Part shown: positions 5,797-18,955 of the stretch, in pieces
Position numbering within the stretch: position 1 is the stretch's first letter
Layout: the number at the start of each line of letters is the position of its first letter
NCBI RefSeq assembly: GCF_038019025.1
Contig: NZ_CP150496.1
Span: forward strand, 3,101,536 to 3,165,535
Length of the DNA: 64,000 nt
Source of the DNA: Polaribacter marinaquae
Lineage (GTDB): Bacteria; Bacteroidota; Bacteroidia; Flavobacteriales; Flavobacteriaceae
Direction: 5' to 3'
Position numbers and translations under genes: made by a program
The notes under the pieces: generated by a model
The model's database searches: none
The model's input: the letters and a program-made list of their open reading frames with translations, nothing else
What the model was told of the DNA's origin: nothing

Positions 5797-5853
5797 TTAT
5801 TTTTTTGCGACTATTTTATGTAATATTGAACTTGTTTACACTTTATTTAACAC

Positions 5854-6585
5854 TTGAAAATAATCAAACTTAGTGCCATCGATTCTACCAATTCTTTTTT
5901 AAAAGAAATGGCATCTAATTCTGTTCTAGAAAATTACACAATTGTTGTTACAGATAGCCAAGTAAATGGTCGTGGGCAACAAGGCAGTGTTTGGGTTTCA
6001 GAACCTTATAAGAACTTGATATTTAGTGTTTTTGTTCGTTTTTCTGATTTGGATATTTCGAAAAGAAGATACTTGAATTTTGCAGTTTCTTTGTCCATTT
6101 ATCAAGTTTTAACAGCTTTAGAAATTCCGAAAGTTACCATTAAATGGCCTAACGACATTTTGGCAGTAAACAAGAAAATTTGCGGAGTTTTAGTTGAAAA
6201 TAGTTTAAAAGGGGCAAAAATAGCATCTTCTGTAATCGGAATAGGACTCAATGTAAATCAAACTGTTTTTCCTAAGCACTTAGAAAAAGCGAGTTCTTTA
6301 AAACTGATAAGACCCAAACCTTATAATTTAGAAGAAATTTTAGATTTACTTATTTTAAAGTTGAAAGAGAAGATAGCAGTTTTAGAATCTGATCATTTTG
6401 AGACTTTAGAAAAAGACTATTTACATGTGTTGCATAAAAAAAACATTCCTACTATGTTTAAAGATAGTAAAAATGCTTTATTTATGGGTGTAATTCGAGG
6501 TATTTCTATAGATGGTAAGCTTCAAGTAGAAGTAGAAGATGAAACCATTTTAGAATTTGGCATTAAAGAAATTTCTTTACTTTAA
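5854..6585 (+). CDS. birA: Biotin--[acetyl-CoA-carboxylase] ligase
   Basis: 243 aa. It activates biotin with ATP and transfers it to the carrier protein of acetyl-CoA carboxylase. STNSFLKEM near the N-terminus, GRGQQGSVWVS (39-49) and TIKWPNDI...KICGVLVE are the biotin protein ligase signature. There is no N-terminal winged helix, so it is a class I, non-repressor ligase. The start is TTG: the family's conserved IDSTNS lies before the first in-frame ATG. It is divergent from rsfS, and its 3' end overlaps the convergent SRPBCC gene by 4 bp. Confidence 0.93.
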   Translation: MKIIKLSAIDSTNSFLKEMASNSVLENYTIVVTDSQVNGRGQQGSVWVSEPYKNLIFSVFVRFSDLDISKRRYLNFAVSLSIYQVLTALEIPKVTIKWPNDILAVNKKICGVLVENSLKGAKIASSVIGIGLNVNQTVFPKHLEKASSLKLIRPKPYNLEEILDLLILKLKEKIAVLESDHFETLEKDYLHVLHKKNIPTMFKDSKNALFMGVIRGISIDGKLQVEVEDETILEFGIKEISLL

Positions 6586-6971
6586 AGTTTCGAAATATTT
6601 TCTGTCAAAGTATCTACAAATTTAGATAATGGTTTTTTTACCATCATAGCCATCATTGGGTTAAAATCTCCATTAAAATTTAAAGAAACCTCACTTTTAG
6701 TATCTTCAATTTTAACAATATCCGCAGCCAATGCAAAAGATAATTTACTGCTAGCAGCACCAAGGGTAATGTTAGAAAATTCAGTTTTTTCTTTTAATAC
6801 CAATCTTATTTCTGGCATTCCTGGTAAGCTAAATAAAAAAGAATCGCCATCAACTTCAAACTTTTGTGTGTTTTCTGGCATTATTTTTTCAAAATTATTT
6901 AATTCGCTAAAAAAGTTAAATAATTCTTCTTGCGATTTATCAATCACAACTTTGTTTCCTGTAATATTCAT
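6582..6971 (-). CDS. SRPBCC (START-like) family protein
   Basis: 129 aa from the ATG at 6969-6971. A longer frame reaches an ATG at 7001 inside pyrE, but the family begins at about MNITGNKVVIDKSQEELFNFF. It is a small START/Bet v1-like beta-grip fold with an N-terminal strand-helix and a C-terminal long helix KPLSKFVDTLTENISKL. Such proteins hold hydrophobic ligands; no ligand can be named here. It lies 17 bp behind pyrE and is probably co-transcribed with it. Confidence 0.8.
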   Translation of the reverse strand: MNITGNKVVIDKSQEELFNFFSELNNFEKIMPENTQKFEVDGDSFLFSLPGMPEIRLVLKEKTEFSNITLGAASSKLSFALAADIVKIEDTKSEVSLNFNGDFNPMMAMMVKKPLSKFVDTLTENISKL

Positions 6972-6988
6972 GTTTTTAATCTTTTTTT

Positions 6989-7630
6989 TTATTGATTCCA
7001 AGTACTAGGCTCTCTTCTCCATTCGTGCAAGGTAATCAATTCTTTTTCAGAAATATAATTACTTTCTAGTGCTTGTTCTAACAAGTTGTCGTAGTTGCTT
7101 AATGTAGTAAGTGCAACGTTCTTTTCTTTAAAATTGTCTGTTGCAACCTCAAAGCCATAAGAAAAAATAGCGACCATACCTTTAACAACAGCGCCCGCTT
7201 CTTTTAAAGCATCTACTGCATTTAAGCTACTTTTACCAGTACTTATTAAATCTTCTATAACCACTACATTTTGTCCGCTTTCTAAATGCCCTTCAATTTG
7301 GTTTTTTCTACCATGTTTTTTAGGTTCTGGTCTTACATAAATAAAAGGTACACCTAATTCTTGCGCTACTAAAATACCAATTGCTATTGCACCCGTTGCA
7401 ACACCAGCAATTACATCTGGTTTACCGTATTCTTTCTCTACAATTTTTGCAATTTCTTCTTTTAAGAAAATACGAACCGGAGGATATGAAAGCGTTACTC
7501 TGTTATCGCAATAAATTGGCGATTTCCAACCCGATGCCCAATTAAAAGGATCGCTTGGGTTTAGCTTAATTGCTTTTACTTGTAGTAAAAGTTCAGCTGT
7601 TTTTTTTGCCGTATCTTTGTTTAAAATCAT
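6989..7630 (-). CDS. pyrE: Orotate phosphoribosyltransferase
   Basis: 213 aa. It joins orotate to PRPP to make OMP in de novo pyrimidine synthesis. SGWKSPIYCDNR near the N-terminus and the PRPP-binding loop VVVIEDLISTGKSSLNA match the family. The flexible-loop lysines lie in RPEPKKHGRKNQIEG. It is divergent from the Nudix gene, with start codons only 7 bp apart, so the two promoters must overlap the opposing coding regions. Confidence 0.96.
   Translation of the reverse strand: MILNKDTAKKTAELLLQVKAIKLNPSDPFNWASGWKSPIYCDNRVTLSYPPVRIFLKEEIAKIVEKEYGKPDVIAGVATGAIAIGILVAQELGVPFIYVRPEPKKHGRKNQIEGHLESGQNVVVIEDLISTGKSSLNAVDALKEAGAVVKGMVAIFSYGFEVATDNFKEKNVALTTLSNYDNLLEQALESNYISEKELITLHEWRREPSTWNQ
7612..7619 (+). 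promoter_or_regulatory. -7 promoter element for the Nudix gene
   Basis: TATCTTTG fits TAnnTTTG exactly. It lies inside the pyrE 5' end and predicts transcription from about 7626, which favours the ATG at 7638 as the Nudix start over the one at 7617. Confidence 0.65.
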
Positions 7631-7637
7631 ACCGCAA

Positions 7638-8234
7638 ATGTATAAAGTTTTTGTAAATGATAAGCCAATAATTGTAACATCTTCTCAAAAAAAAGAGAAT
7701 GATTTTCCTTTGTATATTTTAAAAAATTCTGTAACAGAAGAAATTATACACAAACTTAAAAGTAACAGTGTTAAGGGGATAACGCTTTATACGCCCAATT
7801 TAGAGGAAGGTTGGCGCGCTTTTTTAAAAACTTTTAATATCGTTTCTGCAGCCGGTGGTTTGGTTTTAAATACCCACAAAGAAATATTGTGTATTTACAG
7901 GTTTGATAAATGGGATTTACCTAAAGGAAGAATCGAAAAAGGCGAGTCTGTAGAAGAAGCTGCTGTAAGAGAGGTAGAAGAAGAATGTGGTATAGATGGC
8001 TTGCAATTGGAACAACCATTACTTACTACCTACCATGTTTATTTTCAAAACGGAATGAAACTAAAAGAAACCTTTTGGTATTTGATGACGACGACGTATG
8101 CGGGCGCTTTAACACCACAATTAGAAGAGGGTATTACAAAGGTTGTTTTTAAGAAACAAAAAGAGGCAGCAATAGCGTTAACAAATTCGTATAAAAACAT
8201 CGCTTTAGTTTATGATACTTACCTAAATATGTAA
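7638..8234 (+). CDS. Nudix hydrolase
   Basis: 198 aa from ATG 7638 (MYKVFVNDKPI); an upstream in-frame ATG at 7617 lies on the -7 element and is unlikely. The Nudix box is complete, GRIEKGESVEEAAVREVEEECGI, preceded by LCIYRFDKWDLPK. About 65 N-terminal residues precede the Nudix fold. It hydrolyses a nucleoside-diphosphate-linked substrate that cannot be predicted from the sequence. It is divergent from pyrE, an arrangement common in flavobacteria. Confidence 0.88.
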   Translation: MYKVFVNDKPIIVTSSQKKENDFPLYILKNSVTEEIIHKLKSNSVKGITLYTPNLEEGWRAFLKTFNIVSAAGGLVLNTHKEILCIYRFDKWDLPKGRIEKGESVEEAAVREVEEECGIDGLQLEQPLLTTYHVYFQNGMKLKETFWYLMTTTYAGALTPQLEEGITKVVFKKQKEAAIALTNSYKNIALVYDTYLNM

Positions 8235-8252
8235 TATTCTCAAAAAACATTC

Positions 8253-8260
8253 TATCTTTG
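8253..8260 (+). promoter_or_regulatory. -7 promoter element for the SulP gene
   Basis: TATCTTTG, an exact TAnnTTTG match 25 bp before the ATG at 8286. No convincing -33 TTG is visible. Confidence 0.6.
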
Positions 8261-8285
8261 CCGACTTCTAAAAAGCTACAATAAA

Positions 8286-10178
8286 ATGACAGGATTTATC
8301 AAAAAAATAATGCCAAATGCAAAAGATGATGCATTAGCAGGTATAACGGTTTCTTTAGCAATGATACCAGAGGTGGTAGCCTTTGCTTTTGTAGCGCAAA
8401 TTAGCCCAATTGTGGCCTTGTTTGGTGCTTTTGTTATTGGATTAATTTCTGCTGTTTTTGGTGGTAGACCAGGATTAATTTCTGGAGCAGCTGGTGCTGT
8501 AGCCGTTATTTTTGTAAATATGATACAAGAAGGGCACGCCAAAGGATTGCTTTTTGACACACCTGTAGAAAATATGGGGTATTTCTACCTGTTAGCAGCA
8601 GTGGTTTTAATGGGAGTTATACAGGTAATTGCCGGTTTGTTTAAACTAGGTAAGTTTGTAAGGCTAATTCCGCACCCTGTAATGATGGGATTTGTAAACG
8701 GTTTGGCTATTGTTATTTTTATGGCACAGTTGGGTATGTTTACAGAAAACAAGAAAGATGTTTATGGACAAAATATGCGTAAAACAACAGCCAAAGAATT
8801 GGTATATAAAGTAGAGAATAATCAAGTAAAAGATCTTGCTTCTGGCACAGTGTTGTTTACAATAGAAGGTAGTACCATTAAAAACGCAAATACCAACCAA
8901 GACGCATTTTTAGTTTCAGAAGGTCAGGTTTTTGATATCAACACAAAAAAGGTAATCTATAATGCAGATAAAGAAGGTTTTTACACTGTAAAAGATAGTG
9001 GTGTGGTAAAAACAACCATGCAAGGTAAAACACTGTATGTTATGATTGGTTTGGTGTTGTTAACCATGTTTATTGTTTGGGGCTTGCCTAAATTAACAAC
9101 AAAAATACCGGCAGCTTTAACAGCTATTTTAATCGTAACATTGGTGTCTATATTTAGTGGTTTAGGTTCTATAAATGTAGGAGACTTTATTAGAGATGGA
9201 GGAGGAGCTGGCTTAAACGGAATAGCAGAACTTTCTAAAAACTTAAATGTATTAGAATTATGGAGTAACCTGCCTTTTAATTTAGACACTTTAAAATTCA
9301 TTGCGCCGTATGCCTTTTTAGCTGCTTCTGTTGGTTTGATAGAAACGCTAATGACAATGAACTTGGTAGACGAGTTAACAGAATCTAGAGGTAATGGTAA
9401 TAAAGAATGTGTAGCGCAAGGTGCTGGTAACATCTTAAGTGGTATGTTTGGTGGTACAGGTGGTTGTGGTATGATTGGGCAAACTGTAATTAATATCAAC
9501 GCAGGTGGTAGAGGCCGTTTGTCTGGTGTTATGATGGCATTAACTTTATTAACCTTTATTTTATTTGCAGATAAATATATAGAACAAGTACCAATTGCAG
9601 CTTTGGTTGGGGTTATGTTTATGATGGTTATAGAAACCTTTGCCTGGTCTAGTTTTAGAATTTTAAAGAAAATACCAATATCGGATGCCGCAGTATTAAT
9701 TATTGTATCTGCAGTAACCGTGTTTTTTGATTTAGCCATTGCAGTATTTGTGGGGGTTATTATTTCTGCTTTATCTTTTGCATGGACAAGTGCTAAGAAA
9801 ATTAGAGCAAGAAAACGTTTTAAAGCAGATGGTACAAAGATTTACGAAATTTGGGGGCCTTTGTTCTTTGGAAGCATTACTGCTTTTAATGATAAGTTTG
9901 ATATTAAAACAGATCCAGAACATATAGAAATAGATTTTGTAGAGTCTAGAGTTTCAGACCACTCTGCCATCGAGGCAATATTTGCTTTGGTAGAAAAATA
10001 CCAGGCAGCGGGTAAAAAAGTTACGTTAAAGCATTTAAGTGAAGATTGTAAAGTGCTTTTATACAAAGCATCTCCTATTTTTGACGGAGTTATCGAAGAA
10101 GGTATCGACGATCCTCGTTATCACTTAGCTGCAAACCCAGAGAAGTTCCCGAAACCTCTTGGTGAGTATAAGTTTTAA
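8286..10178 (+). CDS. SulP-family anion transporter with STAS domain
   Basis: 630 aa inner-membrane transporter of the SulP/SLC26 family, which moves sulfate, bicarbonate or other small anions. The N-terminal AGITVSLAMIPEVVAFAF matches the family's first core helix, RPGLISGAAGAVAVI follows, and the C-terminal cytoplasmic STAS domain occupies about 530-630. A hydrophilic segment of about 95 residues (roughly 154-248) interrupts the membrane core after the FVNGLAIVIFMAQLGMF helix; it is unusual for SulP proteins generally. The gene has its own promoter and no transport partners nearby, so the substrate is open. Confidence 0.9.
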   Translation: MTGFIKKIMPNAKDDALAGITVSLAMIPEVVAFAFVAQISPIVALFGAFVIGLISAVFGGRPGLISGAAGAVAVIFVNMIQEGHAKGLLFDTPVENMGYFYLLAAVVLMGVIQVIAGLFKLGKFVRLIPHPVMMGFVNGLAIVIFMAQLGMFTENKKDVYGQNMRKTTAKELVYKVENNQVKDLASGTVLFTIEGSTIKNANTNQDAFLVSEGQVFDINTKKVIYNADKEGFYTVKDSGVVKTTMQGKTLYVMIGLVLLTMFIVWGLPKLTTKIPAALTAILIVTLVSIFSGLGSINVGDFIRDGGGAGLNGIAELSKNLNVLELWSNLPFNLDTLKFIAPYAFLAASVGLIETLMTMNLVDELTESRGNGNKECVAQGAGNILSGMFGGTGGCGMIGQTVININAGGRGRLSGVMMALTLLTFILFADKYIEQVPIAALVGVMFMMVIETFAWSSFRILKKIPISDAAVLIIVSAVTVFFDLAIAVFVGVIISALSFAWTSAKKIRARKRFKADGTKIYEIWGPLFFGSITAFNDKFDIKTDPEHIEIDFVESRVSDHSAIEAIFALVEKYQAAGKKVTLKHLSEDCKVLLYKASPIFDGVIEEGIDDPRYHLAANPEKFPKPLGEYKF

Positions 10179-10189
10179 GAGGGGCATTT

Positions 10190-10384
10190 CTATAAAAAGT
10201 GGATACCTTTAATTGCTTTTTTACCTGAATACGAAGAAACGAATTCTTTATCATTTAAAGATTTCTTAAATAATGCTGCAATAAGATATTTTTTTATTGC
10301 AGCTTTTAAATTGTTTCCCTTCTCATTTCCTAAATGAATGTCGTTTTTATAGATAGCAAATAATGTTTGCTTTTCTTTTTTCAT
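10190..10384 (-). CDS. Small lysine-rich hypothetical protein
   Basis: 64 aa, rich in Lys (MKKEKQTLFAIYKNDIHLGNEKG...), no signal peptide or membrane segment, not recognised. It is convergent with the SulP gene (11 bp) and lies 29 bp downstream of the helicase gene on the same strand, so it could be the last gene of the MutT-helicase transcript. Codon use looks like that of its neighbours. It may be a genuine small protein, but I have only the open frame and position as support. Confidence 0.5.
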   Translation of the reverse strand: MKKEKQTLFAIYKNDIHLGNEKGNNLKAAIKKYLIAALFKKSLNDKEFVSSYSGKKAIKGIHFL

Positions 10385-10413
10385 GTTGAATTATACTATT
10401 TTTTGTTAATAAT

Positions 10414-13400
10414 TTATCCAATTGATAATTTTGCAGCATCTTTCCATAAATAAAGAGGCATTGGCTCTTTTAATTCCCAATTAATATTCATTGGTTTTGA
10501 ACCATAATGGTCTTTTATTTCTCCTTCTCCAATAAATACGTAACCGGTACTTTTACCAAATTCATTTTTTGCTTTTTCTCGAACAAAAAGAAGAATTCTT
10601 TTTTCTTGTTCTTTATGCTTGATATATGATAGACCTTTTCCCAAATCTGGTCTAGCAGAATTTTGAGTTTGCCAATGAAATAATAATTCATTTACAGCAT
10701 AATCATCATACATTGTTGTTGGTGAAAAGTTTTCTTCGGATTTTATAAGATTGATAAATAATATTTCAGTATTTAAGTCTTTATTTAATGCTGTTCCTTC
10801 TCTATTAGATGATTTTTTGTTAAAACTACTAAGTTGAAATGCTGATAAAATTTGGTCTCTTGTATAACGACTATGCAATTTCAATGGTTGGTGATACGGT
10901 AGTTGAATTGGTAATTCTTTAAAGTCGATGTTTTCGATTAATAATTCGAGAACTTCTTTAATTTCTTCAATTAAAATTTTATTTAAACCAATTGTTTTAA
11001 TACTTTCTTCTAATGAATCAAAACCACCTTCTTTTTGCCAAACATCATAATGTAACATCAAAAGCATGATTTTTTCGTTTTGATTGAATTCTGAAATATT
11101 TATATTAAAATTTTGTTTGGCAATTTTTAAAATGAATGTAAAATAGCTTAACGAATTTGTTGAAAGCCATTTATTCGATATGGTAGAGACTATTTCTTTC
11201 TCATTTTTCGGATCAAAATCATTAATTTTTCCGGCTAAATGACATAATCGTTTCCAGCTACCTCTTTTGTATATTGATTGTAATGGTATATTATAAAACT
11301 TACTAAAGTTACCGATTGTTAAAGGTAGATTAGTGTCATTTTGAAATTGCTGTATTCTTTGAATTAACTTATTCTTATTTAATGAGGTTGCAGCTGAAAT
11401 ATTTTTAAGTATTGTTTCTTTTGTTTTTTTCTCTAAAATGATAGAGCAACCTAAAGGTAGATGAGGAAAATCGTCCTCAATTTCTTTTAAAACAGTTGTA
11501 TTTGTTTTACCTATTAAAGCTCTAAACTTACTTTCAAAGTTGTATTCAGGTTTTGAGTTTCCAACAAAATCTAAAACTGTCAAGCAATCTTTCTCTTCAT
11601 GAAGTCTTAATCCTCTTCCTAATTGTTGTAAAAAGACTGTTAAGCTTTCCGTTGGTCTTAAAAATAAAACCGTATCGATTTCTGGAATATCGATTCCTTC
11701 GTTAAACATGTCGACAACAAATAGATAATTGATTTCTTTTTTTTCTAATTTCTGACGAATATAAACTCTGTCTTTACTGTTTTCGCTAGTTAAATAGTCA
11801 GCTTTTAATCCAGCTAAAGTAAATTTTTCAGCCATGAATTTTGCATGTTCCATTGTAGCACAATAACCTAAAGACCTAACCTCATTTATGTCTTTTGTGT
11901 ATTTGTCTAATGCATCTATGATTTCCCTAGCTCTTCTGTCATTCCCTGTATACAAATCTGTTAATTCACTTGGTGCATATTTTCCTCTTGACCAACTTAC
12001 GTTTGTTAAATCAACACTATCGGTAATTCCAAAATATTGAAAAGGACAAAGCAATTTTCGATTCATTGCTTCAGGTAATCTAATTTCTGCAGCAATCTTA
12101 TTCTCAAAATCTTCTAAAATGTCTCCACCATCCATTCGTTCTGGAGTAGCAGTTAAGCCAAGTAAAACCTTTGGTTTAAAATGATTTATTATTTCTCTAT
12201 AACTATTAGCTGTTTGATGATGACATTCATCTATTATGATGTAATCATAATAATCAGGAGTTAAATTGTATTCTTTAAATTTGTTTTTAACAGATTGTAC
12301 CGAAGCAAATACAAATTCAAAATTATCAGGAACCATTCCGTCAACCCATAATTCACCAATATTGTTATTTCTTAAAACACCCTGAAAAGTAGACAATGAT
12401 TTTTGTATGATTTCTTTTCTATGTGCAAGGAATAGAAGTTTTGCAGATTTGTTATTTTGTTTAAAACGTTTGTAATCAAACGCAGAAATAACTGTTTTTC
12501 CAGTTCCAGTTGCTGCAACTACAAGGTTTCTAAATCTTTTGTGAACCGTTCTTTCTACTTCTAGTTTTTCTAATACTTCTTTTTGATAAGGAAAAGGTTT
12601 AATATCAAACAAAGCTGTTGCGTTTTCATAAGGTTTACTAAATTTACTTTGTTTTAAGGCATTTTGAAGTTTCTCCTTGTGTTTAGAATCATCAAATAAT
12701 TCAAAATCATCACTATTCCAATAAGAATCAAATGTCTTATTGAATTTATCAATTATGTGACTTACTTCTTTGGTTGTAACTTTTAAATTCCATTCTAAAC
12801 CATCTGTTAAAGCTGACCTCGAAAAGTTAGAAGAGCCAATATATGCTGTATGAAATCCAGTATTTCTATAAAAAAGATATGCTTTTGCATGTAACCTTTC
12901 ATTACTTGTATTGTACGATATTTTAACTTCAGTATTTGGTAGTTTTGAAAGTAGTTGAATAGCTTTATAATCAGTTGCACCAATATAAGTAGTTGTAATA
13001 ACTTTTAGTTTTCCACCACGTTCAGTAAATTCTCTTAACTCTTTTTCAAGAATAATGATACCTTTAAATTTTATAAAAGAGACAAGAAGATATATTTCGT
13101 TAGACGAAAGAATCTCCTTTTTAAGCTCACTTTCTAGTGATAGACCACCGTTTCCACCTGTAAATAATTCACTTTGTGTTAATCTTGTATAAGGAGTGAT
13201 TTCTTTTAATCTTAAATCTAAATTTGAAAAGTGCGCATCAGTTTTTGAAAATACTGCCTTTAAAATTTCACCTTCGACACTAACTAAATCATCATTGAAT
13301 TCTTGTTTATTTAATTCATCTTTAAGTAATTTAATTATTTTGTTAGCAATTTCAATTTGTAATTCGGCTTTGCCTTTTATAAGTTGAAATGCATGTTTTA

Positions 13401-13548
13401 AAGTTTTAGCTAGATGTTTAGATAAAACACTTGAGGCTTCCTCTTTGTCAATTGAAGTTTTCTTTAGAAAGAATTTATCTTTATCAATTTTATTTAAATT
13501 TTCAGATACTAATTGGGTTATTAATTCTTCGTAAATTCCTTGATTCAT
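10414..13548 (-). CDS. PLD-nuclease / SF2 helicase / DUF3427 protein
   Basis: 1044 aa multidomain protein. Residues about 140-290 are a phospholipase D-like nuclease domain with one HxK motif (HAKAYLF, His220 and Lys222, then IGSSNFSRSAL). Residues about 315-660 are a superfamily 2 helicase: motif I ATGTGKT (346-352), II DECHH (440-444), III TATPE (466-470), V FNEGIDIP, VI QQLGRGLRLH (641-650). Residues about 700-1040 resemble DUF3427. A single PLD half-site implies dimerisation if it is a nuclease. Proteins with this order are widespread but patchy in bacteria and are suspected of acting in DNA repair or phage defence. It overlaps the MutT-like gene by 4 bp, so the two are coupled. All motifs look intact. 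Confidence 0.9.
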   Translation of the reverse strand: MNQGIYEELITQLVSENLNKIDKDKFFLKKTSIDKEEASSVLSKHLAKTLKHAFQLIKGKAELQIEIANKIIKLLKDELNKQEFNDDLVSVEGEILKAVFSKTDAHFSNLDLRLKEITPYTRLTQSELFTGGNGGLSLESELKKEILSSNEIYLLVSFIKFKGIIILEKELREFTERGGKLKVITTTYIGATDYKAIQLLSKLPNTEVKISYNTSNERLHAKAYLFYRNTGFHTAYIGSSNFSRSALTDGLEWNLKVTTKEVSHIIDKFNKTFDSYWNSDDFELFDDSKHKEKLQNALKQSKFSKPYENATALFDIKPFPYQKEVLEKLEVERTVHKRFRNLVVAATGTGKTVISAFDYKRFKQNNKSAKLLFLAHRKEIIQKSLSTFQGVLRNNNIGELWVDGMVPDNFEFVFASVQSVKNKFKEYNLTPDYYDYIIIDECHHQTANSYREIINHFKPKVLLGLTATPERMDGGDILEDFENKIAAEIRLPEAMNRKLLCPFQYFGITDSVDLTNVSWSRGKYAPSELTDLYTGNDRRAREIIDALDKYTKDINEVRSLGYCATMEHAKFMAEKFTLAGLKADYLTSENSKDRVYIRQKLEKKEINYLFVVDMFNEGIDIPEIDTVLFLRPTESLTVFLQQLGRGLRLHEEKDCLTVLDFVGNSKPEYNFESKFRALIGKTNTTVLKEIEDDFPHLPLGCSIILEKKTKETILKNISAATSLNKNKLIQRIQQFQNDTNLPLTIGNFSKFYNIPLQSIYKRGSWKRLCHLAGKINDFDPKNEKEIVSTISNKWLSTNSLSYFTFILKIAKQNFNINISEFNQNEKIMLLMLHYDVWQKEGGFDSLEESIKTIGLNKILIEEIKEVLELLIENIDFKELPIQLPYHQPLKLHSRYTRDQILSAFQLSSFNKKSSNREGTALNKDLNTEILFINLIKSEENFSPTTMYDDYAVNELLFHWQTQNSARPDLGKGLSYIKHKEQEKRILLFVREKAKNEFGKSTGYVFIGEGEIKDHYGSKPMNINWELKEPMPLYLWKDAAKLSIG

Positions 13549-13934
13549 AGTGATAAATATTCTTGTAAAATTGGCAAATCTGCTTCAGCCCAATCTAAAT
13601 TAATCAATTTTTTTTTATTAACTAAAACAGAGTTAGCATGTTCTTTAAGTATTAATTCACCTGAAACATATTCAGCAGTAAAAGGAATCAATTTAATTTT
13701 AAAATCAGGATATTCATGAGTCACAGGAGTTAACTGATTTTTGATTTCAATTTTGATATTTAATTCCTCAAAAATTTCTCTTTTTATACATTCAACTTCT
13801 GTTTCTCCTTCTTCAATTTTTCCTCCTGGAAATTCCCACTTAAGTGGAAGTTTCATTGTTTCACTTCTTTGAACTGCTAAAACTTCATTGTCATATAAAA
13901 TGATAGCACAGGTAACTTTGATAGTTTTATTCAT
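13545..13934 (-). CDS. MutT-like Nudix (deoxy)nucleotide pyrophosphohydrolase
   Basis: 129 aa. The N-terminus VTCAIILYDNEVLAVQRSE and KWEFPGGKIEEGETEVECIKREIFEELNI form a complete MutT-type Nudix box, and the C-terminal VNKKKLINLDWAEADLPIL is typical of (d)NTP pyrophosphohydrolases such as 8-oxo-dGTP diphosphatase. Its stop overlaps the start of the PLD-helicase by 4 bp, so its role is probably tied to that protein: clearing modified nucleotides or making a nucleotide signal are both possible. It differs from the Nudix gene at 7638. Upstream lies an unusual 360-bp non-coding region. Confidence 0.88.
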   Translation of the reverse strand: MNKTIKVTCAIILYDNEVLAVQRSETMKLPLKWEFPGGKIEEGETEVECIKREIFEELNIKIEIKNQLTPVTHEYPDFKIKLIPFTAEYVSGELILKEHANSVLVNKKKLINLDWAEADLPILQEYLSL

Positions 13935-13970
13935 TATTAAACCATATAAGAAAAATTATAAGCACTAATT

Positions 13971-14000
13971 TATAAAAAATAAAGGAGTAATCGATACCCC
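13971..14000 (-). terminator. Intrinsic terminator or attenuator upstream of mutT-like gene
   Basis: On the minus strand GGGGTA (from 13995-14000) pairs with TACTCC (13984-13989), one pair being G-U, across a 5-nt loop, and is followed by TTTATTTTTTATA. It lies upstream of the MutT-like start at 13934, so it would end an upstream transcript or attenuate the operon. Confidence 0.6.
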
Positions 14001-14075
14001 TCAGGTACTAATCACAACACAACACAGCAGCAAATACTGCAAAGCTGCTGAGCAATTGCAACATTGCACAGGAGT
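13971..14075 (-). ncRNA. Candidate structured small RNA or leader
   Basis: A minus-strand RNA from about 14075 would contain a 7-bp stem CAGCAGC/GCTGCTG (14025-14031 with 14044-14050), a possible second pairing between CTCAG and CTGAG around it, and end in the intrinsic terminator at 13971-14000. The block is richer in G+C than its surroundings. No known RNA family is recognised and no minus-strand TAnnTTTG element was found, so this is a hypothesis. Confidence 0.3.
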
Positions 14076-14096
14076 AAGTTTGTAAAAGTTCTAGAA

Positions 14097-14146
14097 TATA
14101 TTTGAAAATATACTAGTATATTTTTGAATTTATACTAGTATAAATT
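14097..14146. promoter_or_regulatory. Tandem palindromic operator-like repeat
   Basis: Two 22-bp units (14097-14118 and 14119-14140) agree at 19 of 22 positions. Each starts with a plus-strand TAnnTTTG element (TATATTTG, TATTTTTG) and contains TATACTAGTA. Read across units, they form two perfect 20-bp palindromes, 14105-14124 and 14127-14146, both centred on TATACTAGTATA, with centres exactly 22 bp apart, about two helical turns. This fits cooperative binding of a dimeric regulator on one face of the DNA. Confidence 0.7.
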
Positions 14147-14294
14147 TTAAGAAGTTGTAGTGTTTTTATTAGTGTTGGTTGTAAACGCTTGTTTTGCAGG
14201 TAAGTATGCGCCTTGTACAATATACAATATTTAAACTTAAAAAAAGGTTTTATGTTGCATATTTATTCAAAGAGATACTAAGGGTTTTTAACAA

Positions 14295-16508
14295 TTACAC
14301 AAAACCAGCATCTGTTAAAGGCAAACTTCTTACACGTTGCCCTGTAGCTTTAAAAATAGCATTGCAAATAGCAGGTGCCATTACAGGTACACCAGGTTCA
14401 CCTACGCCTGTTGGTGGTTCGTGCATTTTATCCATTATGTGTATGTGTATATTTGGGGAGTCTTGCATGCGTGCCATTTGGTAATCGAAAAAATTATGCT
14501 GCTTAACAGCACCATTTTCTGTAGAGATTTTACCGTACATGGCTAAAGACATTCCAAAAATGGCTGCACCTTCTAATTGGTTTTTAATATTATCTTTATT
14601 CAAAGCCAAACCACAATCTATCGTGGTAAATACATTTTCTATTTTTACTTTTTTATCAATAACAGAAACTTCTACAATGGTGGCTACATAGCTATAAAAA
14701 CTATAATGTATGGCAACACCCATACCGTGGTTTTTAGGAAGCTTTTTACCCCAATTGGCCATTTTAGCGGTTTGTTTTAACACTGCAACCATTCTGTTAG
14801 TACGATATTGCAATGCTGTTTTTTCTAAACTTATGGTTTCTTTGCTTAGTAAATCTAAATGCATTTGCACAGGATCTATATTCCCTGCAAAGGCCAATTC
14901 GTCTACAAAAGAGTTGTTACCAAAACCACTGTGAATATGAACTACAGAACGCAGCCAGCCAATTCTAAGGTTGGCTTCTGCCTTTACGTTTTCTAATCTA
15001 AAATTTGGAATTTGATATGGATTTTTTGTAAAACCTTGGCCAAGTTCAAAACCAGAGGCATAATCAGACAAAGGTTTGAAAGAAGAAACAATAGAAGGAA
15101 ACCCAACTCTTTGCAACCAACCGGTTACTTTACCGTTTAACAAACTTCCTTTTAAATATTGTGTACTTGTTGCATGGTAAAAACTATGTTGTATATCGTC
15201 TTCTCGCGTCCAAACTACTTGTACAGGCGCGTTTATTTTTTTTGAAATAGTTACGGCTTCAACTACAAAATCCGACTTTGATTTTCTACCAAAACCACCA
15301 CCTAAAAATGTAACGTTAATGGTGATGTTTTCAATCGGAATTTCAAAAAAGTGCGCTAATTCACTTCTAGCAGTTTGTGGATCTTGCACAGGTGCCCAAA
15401 CCTCTATTTTATCTTTTTGAAACCAAGCAGTAGCATTGGGCACCTCCATAGGCGCGTGTACTAAAAAAGGCACATGGTAGGTAGCTTCTACTACTTGATC
15501 TGCATGTTTAAAAGCAGTGTGTACGTTTCCGTTACCACCAGGAACTAATTTACCTCTTTTGTGTACGCGTTCTGTAAGTGTTTGTTTAAATTCTTCTGTA
15601 TTAAAAGCAGCATTGTCACCATAATTCCATTCGATATCTAAAGCTAGTTTACCTTGAAAAGCTGCCCAAGTATTGTTGGCAACAACGGCAACCCCACCAA
15701 ACATACCAAAGAATTTTCCGGTAGGTGGCGTACGTCTTTCTAATGCTATAATTTGTGAAACACCCGCAACTTTTTCTGCCTTATTTTTTTTAAAACTCTT
15801 TACAGAGCCAAATGCTACCGGACATCTGGCAACGGCTGCAAATTGCATGTTTGGTATTCTTACATCGATACCATAAGTAGCGGTTCCGGTTGTAAAATCT
15901 TTTAAATCTACACTTTTTAAGGTTTTACCAATATATTTAAAGTCTGCTACTTTTTTTAATTGAATTGTAGTTTCTTCTGGCACTTCTAATTGAGATGCCA
16001 ATGCCACCAAATCACCATAAAATAACTTGTCGTTAGTTAAGGTGTTTATAATAAAATGATTTTCTGCTTTGCAATCTTTTTCAGCAATGTTCCATTTTGT
16101 GGCTGCCGCAGAAATCAACATCATTTTAGCTGCTGCACCCATTTTACGCATGGGTTCTAACCTTGTTCTTACACTTCTAGAACCGTCTGTGTTTTGGTTT
16201 CCGTATTTTTCATGCCCTGTTGCTTGTTTTACTTTTACGTATTGCCAATCTGCTTCTAATTCATCTGCAATTGCAGAAGCTAAAGAGGTTCTTATGCCTT
16301 GTCCCATTTCAGATCTAGAAGCAATTAAAGTAATTGTACCAGCGATATCTATTTGTACAAATAGATTAGGCTCAAAAAAATCTGGATTTATTGTGGGTTT
16401 AAATTTCTTTTCTATCGTGGTTGATGTGCATCCTAAAATTATTCCACCAGAAGCCAAACCAAATAGTTTTACAAAATTTCTTCTGTCTATTTTTTGTATG
16501 TTACTCAT
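14295..16508 (-). CDS. Molybdopterin-binding subunit of a Tat-exported xanthine dehydrogenase-family enzyme
   Basis: 737 aa. The N-terminus has a twin-arginine signal (KIDRRNFVKLFGLASGG) with a possible lipobox ending at Cys27. The remainder matches the large subunit of the isoquinoline 1-oxidoreductase (IorB) branch of the xanthine oxidase family: SRSEMGQGIRTSLASAIADEL, GGGFGRKSKSDFVVEA, and MHEPPTGVGEPGVPVMAPAI with the base-catalyst region near the C-terminus. It hydroxylates an aromatic aldehyde or N-heterocycle using Mo-cytosine dinucleotide, in the periplasm; the substrate is unknown. It overlaps the iron-sulfur subunit gene by 8 bp. No FAD subunit or XdhC-type maturation gene is in the window. 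Confidence 0.92.
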   Translation of the reverse strand: MSNIQKIDRRNFVKLFGLASGGIILGCTSTTIEKKFKPTINPDFFEPNLFVQIDIAGTITLIASRSEMGQGIRTSLASAIADELEADWQYVKVKQATGHEKYGNQNTDGSRSVRTRLEPMRKMGAAAKMMLISAAATKWNIAEKDCKAENHFIINTLTNDKLFYGDLVALASQLEVPEETTIQLKKVADFKYIGKTLKSVDLKDFTTGTATYGIDVRIPNMQFAAVARCPVAFGSVKSFKKNKAEKVAGVSQIIALERRTPPTGKFFGMFGGVAVVANNTWAAFQGKLALDIEWNYGDNAAFNTEEFKQTLTERVHKRGKLVPGGNGNVHTAFKHADQVVEATYHVPFLVHAPMEVPNATAWFQKDKIEVWAPVQDPQTARSELAHFFEIPIENITINVTFLGGGFGRKSKSDFVVEAVTISKKINAPVQVVWTREDDIQHSFYHATSTQYLKGSLLNGKVTGWLQRVGFPSIVSSFKPLSDYASGFELGQGFTKNPYQIPNFRLENVKAEANLRIGWLRSVVHIHSGFGNNSFVDELAFAGNIDPVQMHLDLLSKETISLEKTALQYRTNRMVAVLKQTAKMANWGKKLPKNHGMGVAIHYSFYSYVATIVEVSVIDKKVKIENVFTTIDCGLALNKDNIKNQLEGAAIFGMSLAMYGKISTENGAVKQHNFFDYQMARMQDSPNIHIHIMDKMHEPPTGVGEPGVPVMAPAICNAIFKATGQRVRSLPLTDAGFV

Positions 16509-16968
16509 CTGTTTTGTTTTTTAGAGCTACTGCTTCATGAATTGCTTTTCTAATACGAGTAAAAGTACCACACCTGCAAATATTATTACTCATGGCTTTG
16601 TCTATATCTTGGTCTGTTGGGTTGGCCACAGTGTCTAGTAGTGCAGTGGCTGCAATTAATTGCCCAGACTGACAATAACCACATTGTGGTACATTAATTT
16701 CTGACCAAGTTTGTCTTAAGATTTCTAAATTTTTAGAACTCCCTTCGATTGTAAACACTTGCTTGTCTAGAGCGTAAGAAACCGGTACACTGCAAGATTT
16801 GGTTAATTTACCATCTAATAATACAGAACAAGCACCGCATTGGCTAACACCGCAACCAAACTTAGTACCTGTTAAGCCAACAATGTCTCGAATTGCCCAA
16901 AGAAGCGGCATGTCTTCTTGTGCATTTATGGTATATGTTTTTCCGTTGATAGATAAATTTGTATTCAC
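16501..16968 (-). CDS. (2Fe-2S) subunit of the xanthine dehydrogenase-family enzyme
   Basis: 155 aa. It carries the ferredoxin-like cluster ligands Cys39, Cys44, Cys47 and Cys59 (FGCGVSQCGACSVLLDG) and the second cluster Cys96, Cys99, Cys131 and Cys133 (QCGYCQSG, NICRCGT), the usual small subunit (IorA-type). It passes electrons from the molybdenum subunit. It has no signal peptide, so it should be exported bound to the Tat-bearing large subunit. The start codon is GTG at 16966-16968. Confidence 0.93.
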   Translation of the reverse strand: MNTNLSINGKTYTINAQEDMPLLWAIRDIVGLTGTKFGCGVSQCGACSVLLDGKLTKSCSVPVSYALDKQVFTIEGSSKNLEILRQTWSEINVPQCGYCQSGQLIAATALLDTVANPTDQDIDKAMSNNICRCGTFTRIRKAIHEAVALKNKTDE

Positions 16969-17104
16969 TTATAGACGTTTTAAAGTCTACAAGTTACAAA
17001 TAAAAAAGAGTTTGTTGCTTATTTTAAGTGATGGGTTTTTATGTAATGTAAAGCAAGAGTTTATGGGCTAATTAAAAGCAAAACCATTGTTTGTCTATTA
17101 CAAA

Positions 17105-17146
17105 AATAGATTTGTAATCGCTGTTTAAAGCTTTTACAAATCTATT
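17105..17146. repeat. 13-bp perfect inverted repeat in intergenic DNA
   Basis: AATAGATTTGTAA (17105-17117) and its exact reverse complement (17134-17146) flank a 16-bp spacer. It lies between the M14 peptidase stop and the hydroxylase small-subunit start. No T-run follows on either strand, so it is not a classical terminator. The rest of 16969-17209 shows nothing else. Confidence 0.8.
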
Positions 17147-17209
17147 GATGTTGTTTATTTTAATAGGGTAGTATCTTTTAAAGCGTATAAATATAGCTTT
17201 GTAAAAAGT

Positions 17210-18955
17210 TTAATACAATTTATAAACTGGCAGTAATAAATGTGCAGGCTCGTAATGTGGCGTTTGTTTATAGACAAAATCTAATTGAGCTCTTGGGTTT
17301 TTCGCAAAATTGGCATCATTTTTAATCTTTTCTGCTAAAGCGATTTTTAATTCAGGGTTTTCTGAAAGGTATTGTTCGGCAATATCCTCAAAAACATATG
17401 CAGAATAGCCTTCTTTTTTCTGTAAAATAGTATCAAAGAAATTCCAATTAAAAAATGAATCTGTAGCTTCTGCTTCTAAGGTTTCTATAAGATATCTAAG
17501 TCCGTTTTGATTTGTAGGAATCAACAAATCACCTGCCTTAAAAGCAACTTCTTTTGTTGATTTTACAGTTTCTGTGCCATAATGTAAATAGTGGCCTTCG
17601 TATGCAGCACTTCTAGTTTTAAAATCTTTAATATGAGAAACCTCTACAGTAATTGTAGTGTCGTTTTTAAAGCGAGTATATGCAATGGCATTATTATCTA
17701 ATCGATCTACAACTTTATGCCAACCTTGTTTTAAAATATAAGCATCCGGAATCTCTATTTCTTTTGTAATTTTAAAATTGTTGTAGTAGTTGGTTTCTTT
17801 TTCAAATGGTTTTGTAGTATCGTAAAACAACCTTTTGCCAGTTGTAACTTTACTGTCTATATAACTAGCTTCATATCCTTTAAAATTAAGTGTTGTGGGT
17901 TTGGTATTATCAACGGCAAATGCAATTGGGTACTTTTTCTTAGCAAGAATTTCTTCGAGTGCCTTTGCTCTTAATTCTTTAATTTTTTCTGAATTTTTAT
18001 CTGTAAAATCAAAAGCAGAAAGCATTAGTTCATAAGTTTGTTCTACTCTAATTTTATAAGGTTTTAACATGTGTGTTTCTACCATTAACCCCAAAGTGTT
18101 AAACAGAGTAGTGTACCCTGTAGAATATCTTGGCGAATCGAAAAATTGCGAAAAACCTGCCTCTGGCGTATTGCCCCAAACATTTACATACGGTGTAATA
18201 ATAATGTTTTTATCTTCTAAAGATTGTTCTATTTCTGGCCTCATGGTCGTTTCTAAAAAACTACCTAATTTGCCACCCAATTTATTGTGCTGTGTAAATA
18301 AATGAGTAATTGCATATTGATAGTCTGCACCGTTGCTAACATGATTGTCTATAAAAACATCTGGCTGTACTGCATGAAAAATTTCTGCAAAAGCTGCCGC
18401 ATTTTTAGTGTCTTGTTTAATAAAGTCTCTATTTAAATCGAAGTTTCTTGCATTGCCTCTAAAACCATATTCTAACGGACCGTTTTGATTGGCTCTTGTA
18501 TGCGAATTTCTATTTAAAGAACCACCAACATTATACACAGGTATCACTGCAATTAAAGTGTTTTTGTATTTTTCTTGTAAAGAATCATTTTGAACGATGT
18601 CTCTTAAAAGCATCATCGATGCATCAATTCCGTCTGATTCTCCCGGATGAATTCCGTTATTTATCAGAATTCTATTTTTAGAAGAATTGGTAATTTCATC
18701 AATATTATAAACACCTTCTCTATTGTAAGTAATTAGATGTAAAGGCTCGCCAGCATCCGTTTGTCCGAAGGTAAATACAGAGATTTCTGAATAAGCTTCT
18801 GCTAAATTTTCATAATACGTAATAATATCTTTGTATTCTGGTGTTTCTTTACCTTTGGATTTTTCGAATTGAGTTGTAAAATCGATGGTATCTTTTGCAT
18901 CTTTATTACAAGAAATTATAAAAAGAGTTAAGACAAATAGTAGTAGTTTTTTCAT
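17210..18955 (-). CDS. M14-family metallopeptidase (zinc carboxypeptidase-like) lipoprotein
   Basis: 581 aa with a lipoprotein signal (LTLFIISC, Cys16). The zinc-binding HxxE is in NNGIHPGESDGIDASMML, an Arg/Asn substrate region follows at NARNFDLNRDFIK, and the downstream His in FIDNHVSNGADYQY and Glu in LMVETHMLK complete the carboxypeptidase A-like site. The C-terminal third is an additional beta-rich region. It is probably a surface or periplasmic peptidase; its substrate is unknown. It starts 6 bp from the coaD stop, so it is likely in that transcript. Confidence 0.9.
   Translation of the reverse strand: MKKLLLFVLTLFIISCNKDAKDTIDFTTQFEKSKGKETPEYKDIITYYENLAEAYSEISVFTFGQTDAGEPLHLITYNREGVYNIDEITNSSKNRILINNGIHPGESDGIDASMMLLRDIVQNDSLQEKYKNTLIAVIPVYNVGGSLNRNSHTRANQNGPLEYGFRGNARNFDLNRDFIKQDTKNAAAFAEIFHAVQPDVFIDNHVSNGADYQYAITHLFTQHNKLGGKLGSFLETTMRPEIEQSLEDKNIIITPYVNVWGNTPEAGFSQFFDSPRYSTGYTTLFNTLGLMVETHMLKPYKIRVEQTYELMLSAFDFTDKNSEKIKELRAKALEEILAKKKYPIAFAVDNTKPTTLNFKGYEASYIDSKVTTGKRLFYDTTKPFEKETNYYNNFKITKEIEIPDAYILKQGWHKVVDRLDNNAIAYTRFKNDTTITVEVSHIKDFKTRSAAYEGHYLHYGTETVKSTKEVAFKAGDLLIPTNQNGLRYLIETLEAEATDSFFNWNFFDTILQKKEGYSAYVFEDIAEQYLSENPELKIALAEKIKNDANFAKNPRAQLDFVYKQTPHYEPAHLLLPVYKLY

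Follow-up and report, generated by a model that had tools for sequence, protein, structure and literature searches.

A mobile SauUSI-family restriction gene and its Nudix partner in Polaribacter marinaquae: a possible nucleotide-pool cleaner in Type IV restriction

Within a 64,000-nucleotide stretch of the Polaribacter marinaquae genome (contig NZ_CP150496.1, positions 3,101,536 to 3,165,535; hereafter the window), two minus-strand genes overlapping by 4 bp encode a small Nudix hydrolase and a 1044-residue nuclease-helicase. We see an even chance that the two form a mobile cassette for Type IV restriction that includes its own cleaner of the nucleotide pool, which would protect the cell from its own enzyme. 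The nuclease belongs to the SauUSI family, the pair is mobile, and the same Nudix subfamily has been recruited repeatedly by unrelated nucleases that are linked to methylated cytosine. A known kind of nuclease has thus been found with a repeatedly recruited Nudix accessory; their adjacency is already in print.

The gene pair and its domains

The open reading frames (ORFs) place the Nudix gene first and the helicase gene second. The features of the pair, in window coordinates, are the following.

13545-13934, minus strand: Nudix hydrolase gene, 129 residues, PDC-S07 family (ORF; full-length match to the PADLOC candidate PDC-S07, 164 bits, residues 1-127 on positions 3-129 of the 135 of the model; Pfam NUDIX)
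13755-13823, minus strand: Nudix box, residues 38-60, GX5EX7REUXEEX-N-U, read from the sequence
13578-13643, minus strand: Nudix residues 98-119, in which Glu98-His99 and Asp119 correspond to Glu97-His98 and Asp118 of NudG (alignment with E. coli NudG and MutT)
10414-13548, minus strand: SauUSI-family PLD-helicase-DUF3427 gene, 1044 residues, second of the pair (ORF; PADLOC mREase_IV, 757.9 bits; 7clg best match by sequence and by fold)
12718-13047, minus strand: PLD nuclease domain, residues 168-277, with His220 and Lys222
12136-12603, minus strand: first domain of the superfamily 2 (SF2) helicase, residues 316-471 (Pfam ResIII, 139 bits)
11602-11916, minus strand: second domain of the SF2 helicase, residues 545-649 (Pfam Helicase_C, 44 bits)
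10438-11046, minus strand: DUF3427 domain, residues 835-1037, the presumed reader of modified DNA (Pfam DUF3427, 99.5 bits)

A first-pass annotation, made from the sequence, had described the two overlapping genes, a complete Nudix box and, in the larger protein, a PLD half-site (His220/Lys222), a full SF2 helicase and a DUF3427-like tail. All of these are present, with the one correction that Asn59 takes the place of the last Gly in an otherwise complete Nudix box. The helicase motifs include a Walker A motif (residues 347-352), DECHH (440-444) and the region of QLGRGLR (642-648). Across an alignment of 23 homologue rows, 34-98% identical to the window protein, His220, Lys222, Lys351, Asp440, Glu441 and the core helicase residues are invariant, as are Gly38, Glu44, Arg52, Glu53, Glu56 and Glu57 in a 25-row alignment of the Nudix protein.

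The large protein is a SauUSI-family enzyme

Contrary to the earlier impression that the locus matches no well-known system, homology identifies the 1044-residue protein as a SauUSI-family Type IV restriction enzyme, predicted to cleave DNA that carries 5-methylcytosine (5mC) or 5-hydroxymethylcytosine (5hmC). It combines the PLD nuclease, the SF2 helicase and DUF3427 in one chain, matches SauUSI over most of its length and retains its catalytic residues, namely the PLD His and Lys and those of Walker A and the DEAH-type box. Its PADLOC match, which spans residues 117-1040, is to the Type IV restriction model PDLC03659 (mREase_IV, subtype A); the sister model PDLC03658 gives 275 bits. The best sequence match in the PDB is 7clg, entitled 'ATP-dependent restriction endonuclease SauUSI' (274 bits); a profile built from the 23 homologues raises this to 469 bits, aligning 133-1019 on 33-918, and the DUF3427 profile alignment falls in the C-terminal part of 7clg. 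The same entry is the best fold match of the predicted structure, a model with a mean predicted local distance difference test score (pLDDT) of 70 and a predicted template modelling score (pTM) of 0.42, in which the domain arrangement is therefore not trusted and which served only for confirming domain identities.

PLD nuclease, SF2 motor and DUF3427 follow one another in the same order in SauUSI, but the window protein is of subtype A, has about 120 extra N-terminal residues and is only about 24% identical to SauUSI in the fold alignment. SauUSI is described as cleaving 5mC and 5hmC DNA with ATP or dATP, and, in contrast to the gene pair seen here, its single polypeptide as sufficient in E. 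coli (PMC3874153).

The pair is an exact two-gene mobile unit

The accessory character that had been proposed for the locus is borne out by its distribution, the helicase being found in only one of 30 same-genus genomes. The pair lies in a gap between the SulP and Xdh genes (window 10179-14294). In the 12 sister genomes that were fetched for this gap, the flanking genes are less than 100 bp apart in seven, enclose one unrelated ORF in three and enclose other systems in two: in L227 (630-5798) a C5-methyltransferase is accompanied by a GHKL-type ATPase, and L228 (655-7215) has two such methyltransferases, an AAA protein and a DUF2357/PDDEXK_7 nuclease. Two sisters thus hold 5mC-making systems at the site which here has taken a system predicted to attack 5mC. 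The gap is an insertion hot spot.

DNA homology with two Lacinutrix loci and one Olleya locus (L002, L003, L011) is restricted to the two genes, stopping no more than 16 bp from their edges. At these loci and at L098, the pair is found 1-13 bp behind a gene of 950 amino acids, which is DNA polymerase I (polA) by Pfam in the two tested. The single conserved site that would have told against the first-pass proposal is not seen. The window pair is 92.5% identical to that of L002, whereas the pairs of L002 and its congener L003 are 87.2% identical to each other and their polA genes 91.5%; the mismatch between these values indicates that the pair was transferred horizontally. The locus of a near relative (L009) matches the window at 97.6% identity over the full 19 kb surrounding the pair.

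The region upstream, which had been regarded as an elaborate control region of the unit, was rejected as a component, because the DNA homology with other genera stops at the edges of the two genes. The tandem palindromes reported there are real: two copies of TATACTAGTATA, the only ones in the window, lie 22 bp apart at 14109 and 14131 (region 14109-14142) in an operator-like arrangement, accompanied by a CAGCAGC/GCTGCTG inverted repeat. They do not belong to the travelling unit, however, as neither the palindromes nor the inverted repeat occur upstream of the pair in L002, L003, L011 and L098, and one palindrome is already imperfect in L009. A possible RNA element in this region found no support in an Rfam scan (best E 0.79, with a score well short of the gathering threshold). 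Downstream, the 64-aa ORF suspected of being a third component (10190-10384) gave no noteworthy match in the family scans, is not covered by the DNA homology to L002, L003 and L011 and was rejected in that role; since L009 carries it uninterrupted, differing by two changes, it may be a separate gene.

Nudix genes beside DUF3427 helicases

Linkage was scored when a Nudix gene lay within 100 bp of a complete DUF3427 helicase. Among the loci from genome_contigs, this was the case at 14 of 23, a sample in which close kin are over-represented because the window protein was the query. In 395 Bacteroidota genomes, 10 of the 25 subtype-A loci among the 30 best were linked, two of the 25 lying too close to a contig end for judging, and in 249 Bacillota genomes the figure was 6 of 11 DUF3427 helicases among 30 loci scanned. 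Subtype B of the Bacteroidota had a Nudix gene, by coordinates, at all eight intact genes; this count leaves out G048, which has in-frame stops, and in G060 the Nudix match reads across one stop. Broken, contig-end-cut or fragmentary loci were dropped from the genome_contigs counts (L014, L023, L024, L028 and L029, of which L014 and L023 have a Nudix gene) and from the Bacteroidota counts (L035, L055, L056, L058 and L059, the last with a Nudix gene), and three contig-end-cut loci lacking one (L206, L212, L219) from the Bacillota counts. The Bacillota sample is rich in PLD-helicases of about 800 aa that lack DUF3427 (L203-L205, L208, L209, L211, L213-L215 and others).

Adjacency of the two genes, whose rarity elsewhere would have told against the first-pass proposal, is therefore frequent. 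The Nudix gene is mostly upstream, but L022, L201 and L221 have it downstream on the same strand, and in L198 it is convergent. A quick helicase tree, on which long branches are flagged, requires at least 12 changes between presence and absence of the Nudix gene. The tree of the Nudix proteins needs five changes for the partners of subtype A and five for those of subtype B, of which the starred branches force two, and the downstream and convergent Nudix proteins group together regardless of their helicase partner.

A Staphylococcus aureus record labelled as a plasmid (L106) has the Nudix gene one base upstream of a broken SauUSI-type gene, and the Nudix sequence equals, by eye, that of the solved structure 5x1x over 125 aligned residues. 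The association has also been noted in the literature: a figure legend in PMC7641849 shows MutT homologues adjoining SauUSI homologues in Streptococcus, and PMC12813430 gives co-localization of PDC-S07 with Type IV restriction in 23 of 23 Streptococcus suis cases. No explanation for the pairing, and nothing further that bears on it, was seen in the open-licence literature on SauUSI, DUF3427 or Type IV or modification-dependent restriction with nudix or mutT.

Other partners of the Nudix subfamily

Endonucleases of the SRA-HNH type form a further group of partners. In 13 of 350 genomes of one order, 14 SRA places were found, six of them directly adjoining a Nudix gene of the same subfamily on the same strand; counting unbroken SRA-HNH frames, the number is 5 of 11. 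Both domains were confirmed by Pfam in L062, L241 and L246. These enzymes are nucleases directed at 5mC and 5hmC, as the window protein is predicted to be, but they have neither PLD nor helicase, and their Nudix gene is downstream rather than upstream. TagI, an enzyme of this type, is reported to cut 5hmC DNA as well as DNA methylated at cytosine C5 and to restrict T4gt (PMC12707154).

Fusions point in the same direction. Both HNH and Nudix domains are present in 38 of 120 listed homologues of L109, and the HNH part scores 114 bits with E. coli McrA (6ghc), a protein named for methylated cytosine, and, in L109, 83 bits with a PADLOC mREase_IV model. A Nudix-Vsr fusion, represented by a Collinsella protein (L112, 4998-5987), has both domains in 114 of 120 listed homologues; Vsr repairs the deamination product of 5-methylcytosine. 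Two cases do not fit this pattern: in L071 (5825-8197), a PDC-S07 Nudix domain is fused N-terminally to a Schlafen-group-3 helicase (PADLOC PDC-S41, 951 bits), and in L107 the Nudix gene overlaps that of an AAA_21 ATPase, in a neighbourhood that includes C5-methyltransferase genes and an Eco47II-family endonuclease. A PDC-S68 helicase (L071, 1586-5413; 1508 bits) adjoins the Nudix-Schlafen fusion.

Plasmids carry Nudix homologues in 56 records, and the neighbours were viewed in nine. Links were clear in four (SauUSI type in S. aureus and Hymenobacter, HNH fusion in Paenibacillus, Vsr fusion in Collinsella), possible links to restriction-modification were seen in two (Treponema, Lactobacillus), and none was recognised in the remaining three (Selenomonas, Butyrivibrio, Pusillibacter), the Selenomonas plasmid having a DUF262 gene 1.3 kb from the Nudix gene on the other strand. 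A Janthinobacterium plasmid encodes an SRA protein with no Nudix gene annotated alongside. Twenty PDC-S07 loci were chosen as not being near the DUF3427 helicase; one adjoins an SRA-HNH gene, one is fused to a Schlafen helicase, and the other 18 showed no recognised partner in a scan of 12 neighbouring or fused proteins (the first 10 from seven of the 20 loci), by which partners may be missed. The common thread of most Nudix partners is DNA methylated at cytosine C5.

Predicted substrate of the Nudix hydrolase

The window Nudix protein probably destroys loose methylated-cytosine nucleotides, that is 5-methyl-dCTP and 5-hydroxymethyl-dCTP. Its scores stay below the NCBIfam equivalog cut-offs for NudG (78.3 of 156 bits) and MutT (76.6 of 97.9 bits), and its best solved relatives are 3gwy ('putative CTP pyrophosphohydrolase') and 5x1x ('mutator mutT protein'), with NudG (2rrk) and MutT (1mut) ranked lower. 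Taking the two E. coli enzymes as yardsticks, His99 and Asp119 of the window protein correspond to His98 and Asp118, the specificity-setting residues of NudG, where MutT has Gly and Asn. The Asn119 by which MutT reads 8-oxoguanine is thus replaced by Asp. Among the linked or fused Nudix rows, the Asp is found in 24 of 24 and the His in 23 of 24.

NudG (Orf135), the CTP and 5-methyl-dCTP pyrophosphohydrolase of E. coli, has the Nudix fold in common with the window protein and agrees with it in the His and the Asp of both pocket positions that were compared, at an identity of about 29%. It differs in its Arg72, which is not conserved in the window Nudix, and in having no nuclease linkage in the one E. 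coli record examined. NudG is listed as a 5-methyl-dCTP pyrophosphatase in PMC5389931. As for the PDC-S07 family, which the window protein matches at full length, PADLOC lists it as a stand-alone candidate without a mechanism, whereas we propose the role of a companion.

Proposed role in self-protection and its alternatives

In the mechanism that we favour, the large protein would read 5-methyl- or 5-hydroxymethylcytosine in incoming DNA through DUF3427, move by its SF2 motor and cut by its PLD nuclease, as does SauUSI, to which it is homologous over nearly its whole length. Modified nucleotides would arise when methylated foreign DNA is broken down or through the action of phage enzymes, and polymerases could use them. 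By removing 5-methyl- and 5-hydroxymethyl-dCTP, the Nudix enzyme would keep modified cytosine out of the host chromosome, and with the pool clean and the mark kept from host DNA, the nuclease would not attack its own cell. According to PMC10742078, polymerases use 5-methyl-dCTP, which may come for the most part from methylated DNA that has been degraded, and phages are reported to have kinases acting on 5-methyl-dCMP and 5-hydroxymethyl-dCMP. Both the substrate of the Nudix enzyme and its role in self-protection are what we infer here. The earlier suggestion of a defence function with a Nudix-helicase partnership gains from the SauUSI homology, the mobility, the C5-methyltransferase systems at the same site in two sisters and the repeated linkage and fusion. 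Its idea that modified nucleotides are involved fits well, with the substrate as the predicted part, while nothing was found that points to the processing of a nucleotide signal. Somewhat more doubtful than the proposal for the pair itself is a general rule, which we put at a little under even: nucleases of methylated cytosine (SauUSI type, SRA-HNH, McrA-like HNH, Vsr) would repeatedly recruit a dedicated 5-methyl/5-hydroxymethyl-dCTP pyrophosphatase, and self would be protected by cleaning of the pool rather than by marking of the chromosome ('pool immunity').

As controls, no Nudix gene was seen at 20 loci with a SWI2_SNF2 domain (HsdR type; regions of 7.9-10.8 kb) or beside 16 complete Bacillota PLD-helicases without DUF3427, the absence of which was scored by a local model and verified with Pfam in three of the 16. 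Several observations count against the proposal. McrBC, which is also 5mC-dependent and served as a further control, had no Nudix gene at any of the 14 loci viewed, in regions spanning 3.9 to 9 kb, and it was rejected as a further partner, a result that tells against the hypothesis in its widest form. Nine of 23, 15 of 25 (two of them the loci too close to a contig end for judging) and 5 of 11 DUF3427 helicases in the three samples have no Nudix gene beside them, which is therefore not essential. In a first phylum sample of 296 genomes, only one of six SRA proteins had a Nudix neighbour, in a scan with a narrower Nudix model than that of the order sample, in which two of the six recur. The Schlafen-group helicase and the AAA ATPase have no known link to 5mC. 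Furthermore, the NudG-like His and Asp are both present in 18 of 18 unlinked subfamily members, so that the signature places the subfamily and not specifically the companions, and NudG also has dCTP and CTP as substrates according to the title of O'Handley 2001. Finally, the Fisher tests of 6/11 Bacillota DUF3427 helicases versus 0/16 PLD-helicases without DUF3427 (p 0.0016), of the same 6/11 versus 0/34 HsdR-type and McrBC loci (p 6e-5) and of 6/14 SRA places versus 0/34 (p 2e-4) ignore shared ancestry.

The Nudix enzyme could alternatively be a second weapon, destroying phage-made 5-hydroxymethyl-dCTP or another modified deoxynucleoside triphosphate and so starving phage DNA synthesis or leaving the phage with unmodified DNA; the nuclease would cut phage DNA that is modified. 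The same linkage to DUF3427 helicases, SRA-HNH enzymes and HNH fusions agrees with this, as does the cutting of 5hmC DNA described for SauUSI and TagI and the restriction of T4gt by the latter (PMC3874153, PMC12707154). The two arms would be partly opposed, however: removal of the precursor hides phage DNA from the nuclease, and we hold this explanation to be unlikely because the loss of the modification works against its partner. The Vsr fusions, moreover, concern host 5mC and not phage pools. Still less probable, in our view, is a general housekeeping enzyme of the MutT type, acting on 8-oxo-dGTP or on the level of dCTP, whose linkage to defence genes has nothing to do with a modified base. 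Similar NCBIfam scores for MutT and NudG, both below the cut-off, and the many unlinked subfamily members would suit such an enzyme; the Asp and His of the window Nudix, against the Asn and Gly of MutT, would not, nor would repeated linkage and fusion to methylated-cytosine nucleases as opposed to 0/34 at HsdR-type and McrBC loci and 0/16 beside PLD-helicases without DUF3427.

Least probable of all appears to be that the large protein does not depend on modification, but is a helicase-nuclease of repair or the nuclease of a conventional restriction system. RadD is its third-ranked sequence match in the PDB, and in L016, a 46%-identical helicase relative without a Nudix gene, the start of the next ORF reads like a C5-methyltransferase. 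Yet the match to RadD is limited to the helicase core (NCBIfam RadD, 123 of the required 720 bits), whereas SauUSI jointly matches the PLD, motor and C-terminal parts, and no methyltransferase gene was recognised among the ORFs adjoining the pair in window 8000-17500. The L016 locus (5836-12379) comprises the Nudix-less helicase relative, the C5-methyltransferase-like ORF start and then a further large ORF, an odd setting for an enzyme attacking 5mC.

Significance for Type IV restriction

Enzymes of Type IV are usually thought to need no antidote, the host simply being without the modification. If a host can gain the mark by way of its nucleotide pool, as from the debris of DNA that the enzyme has destroyed, an antidote at the level of nucleotides would be needed. 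The Nudix accessory thus points to a testable idea about self-protection in Type IV restriction. If true, cleaning of the pool would account for PDC-S07, point to what the S. aureus 'MutT' of the solved structure 5x1x may do and reveal a cost of salvaging modified nucleotides in bacteria.

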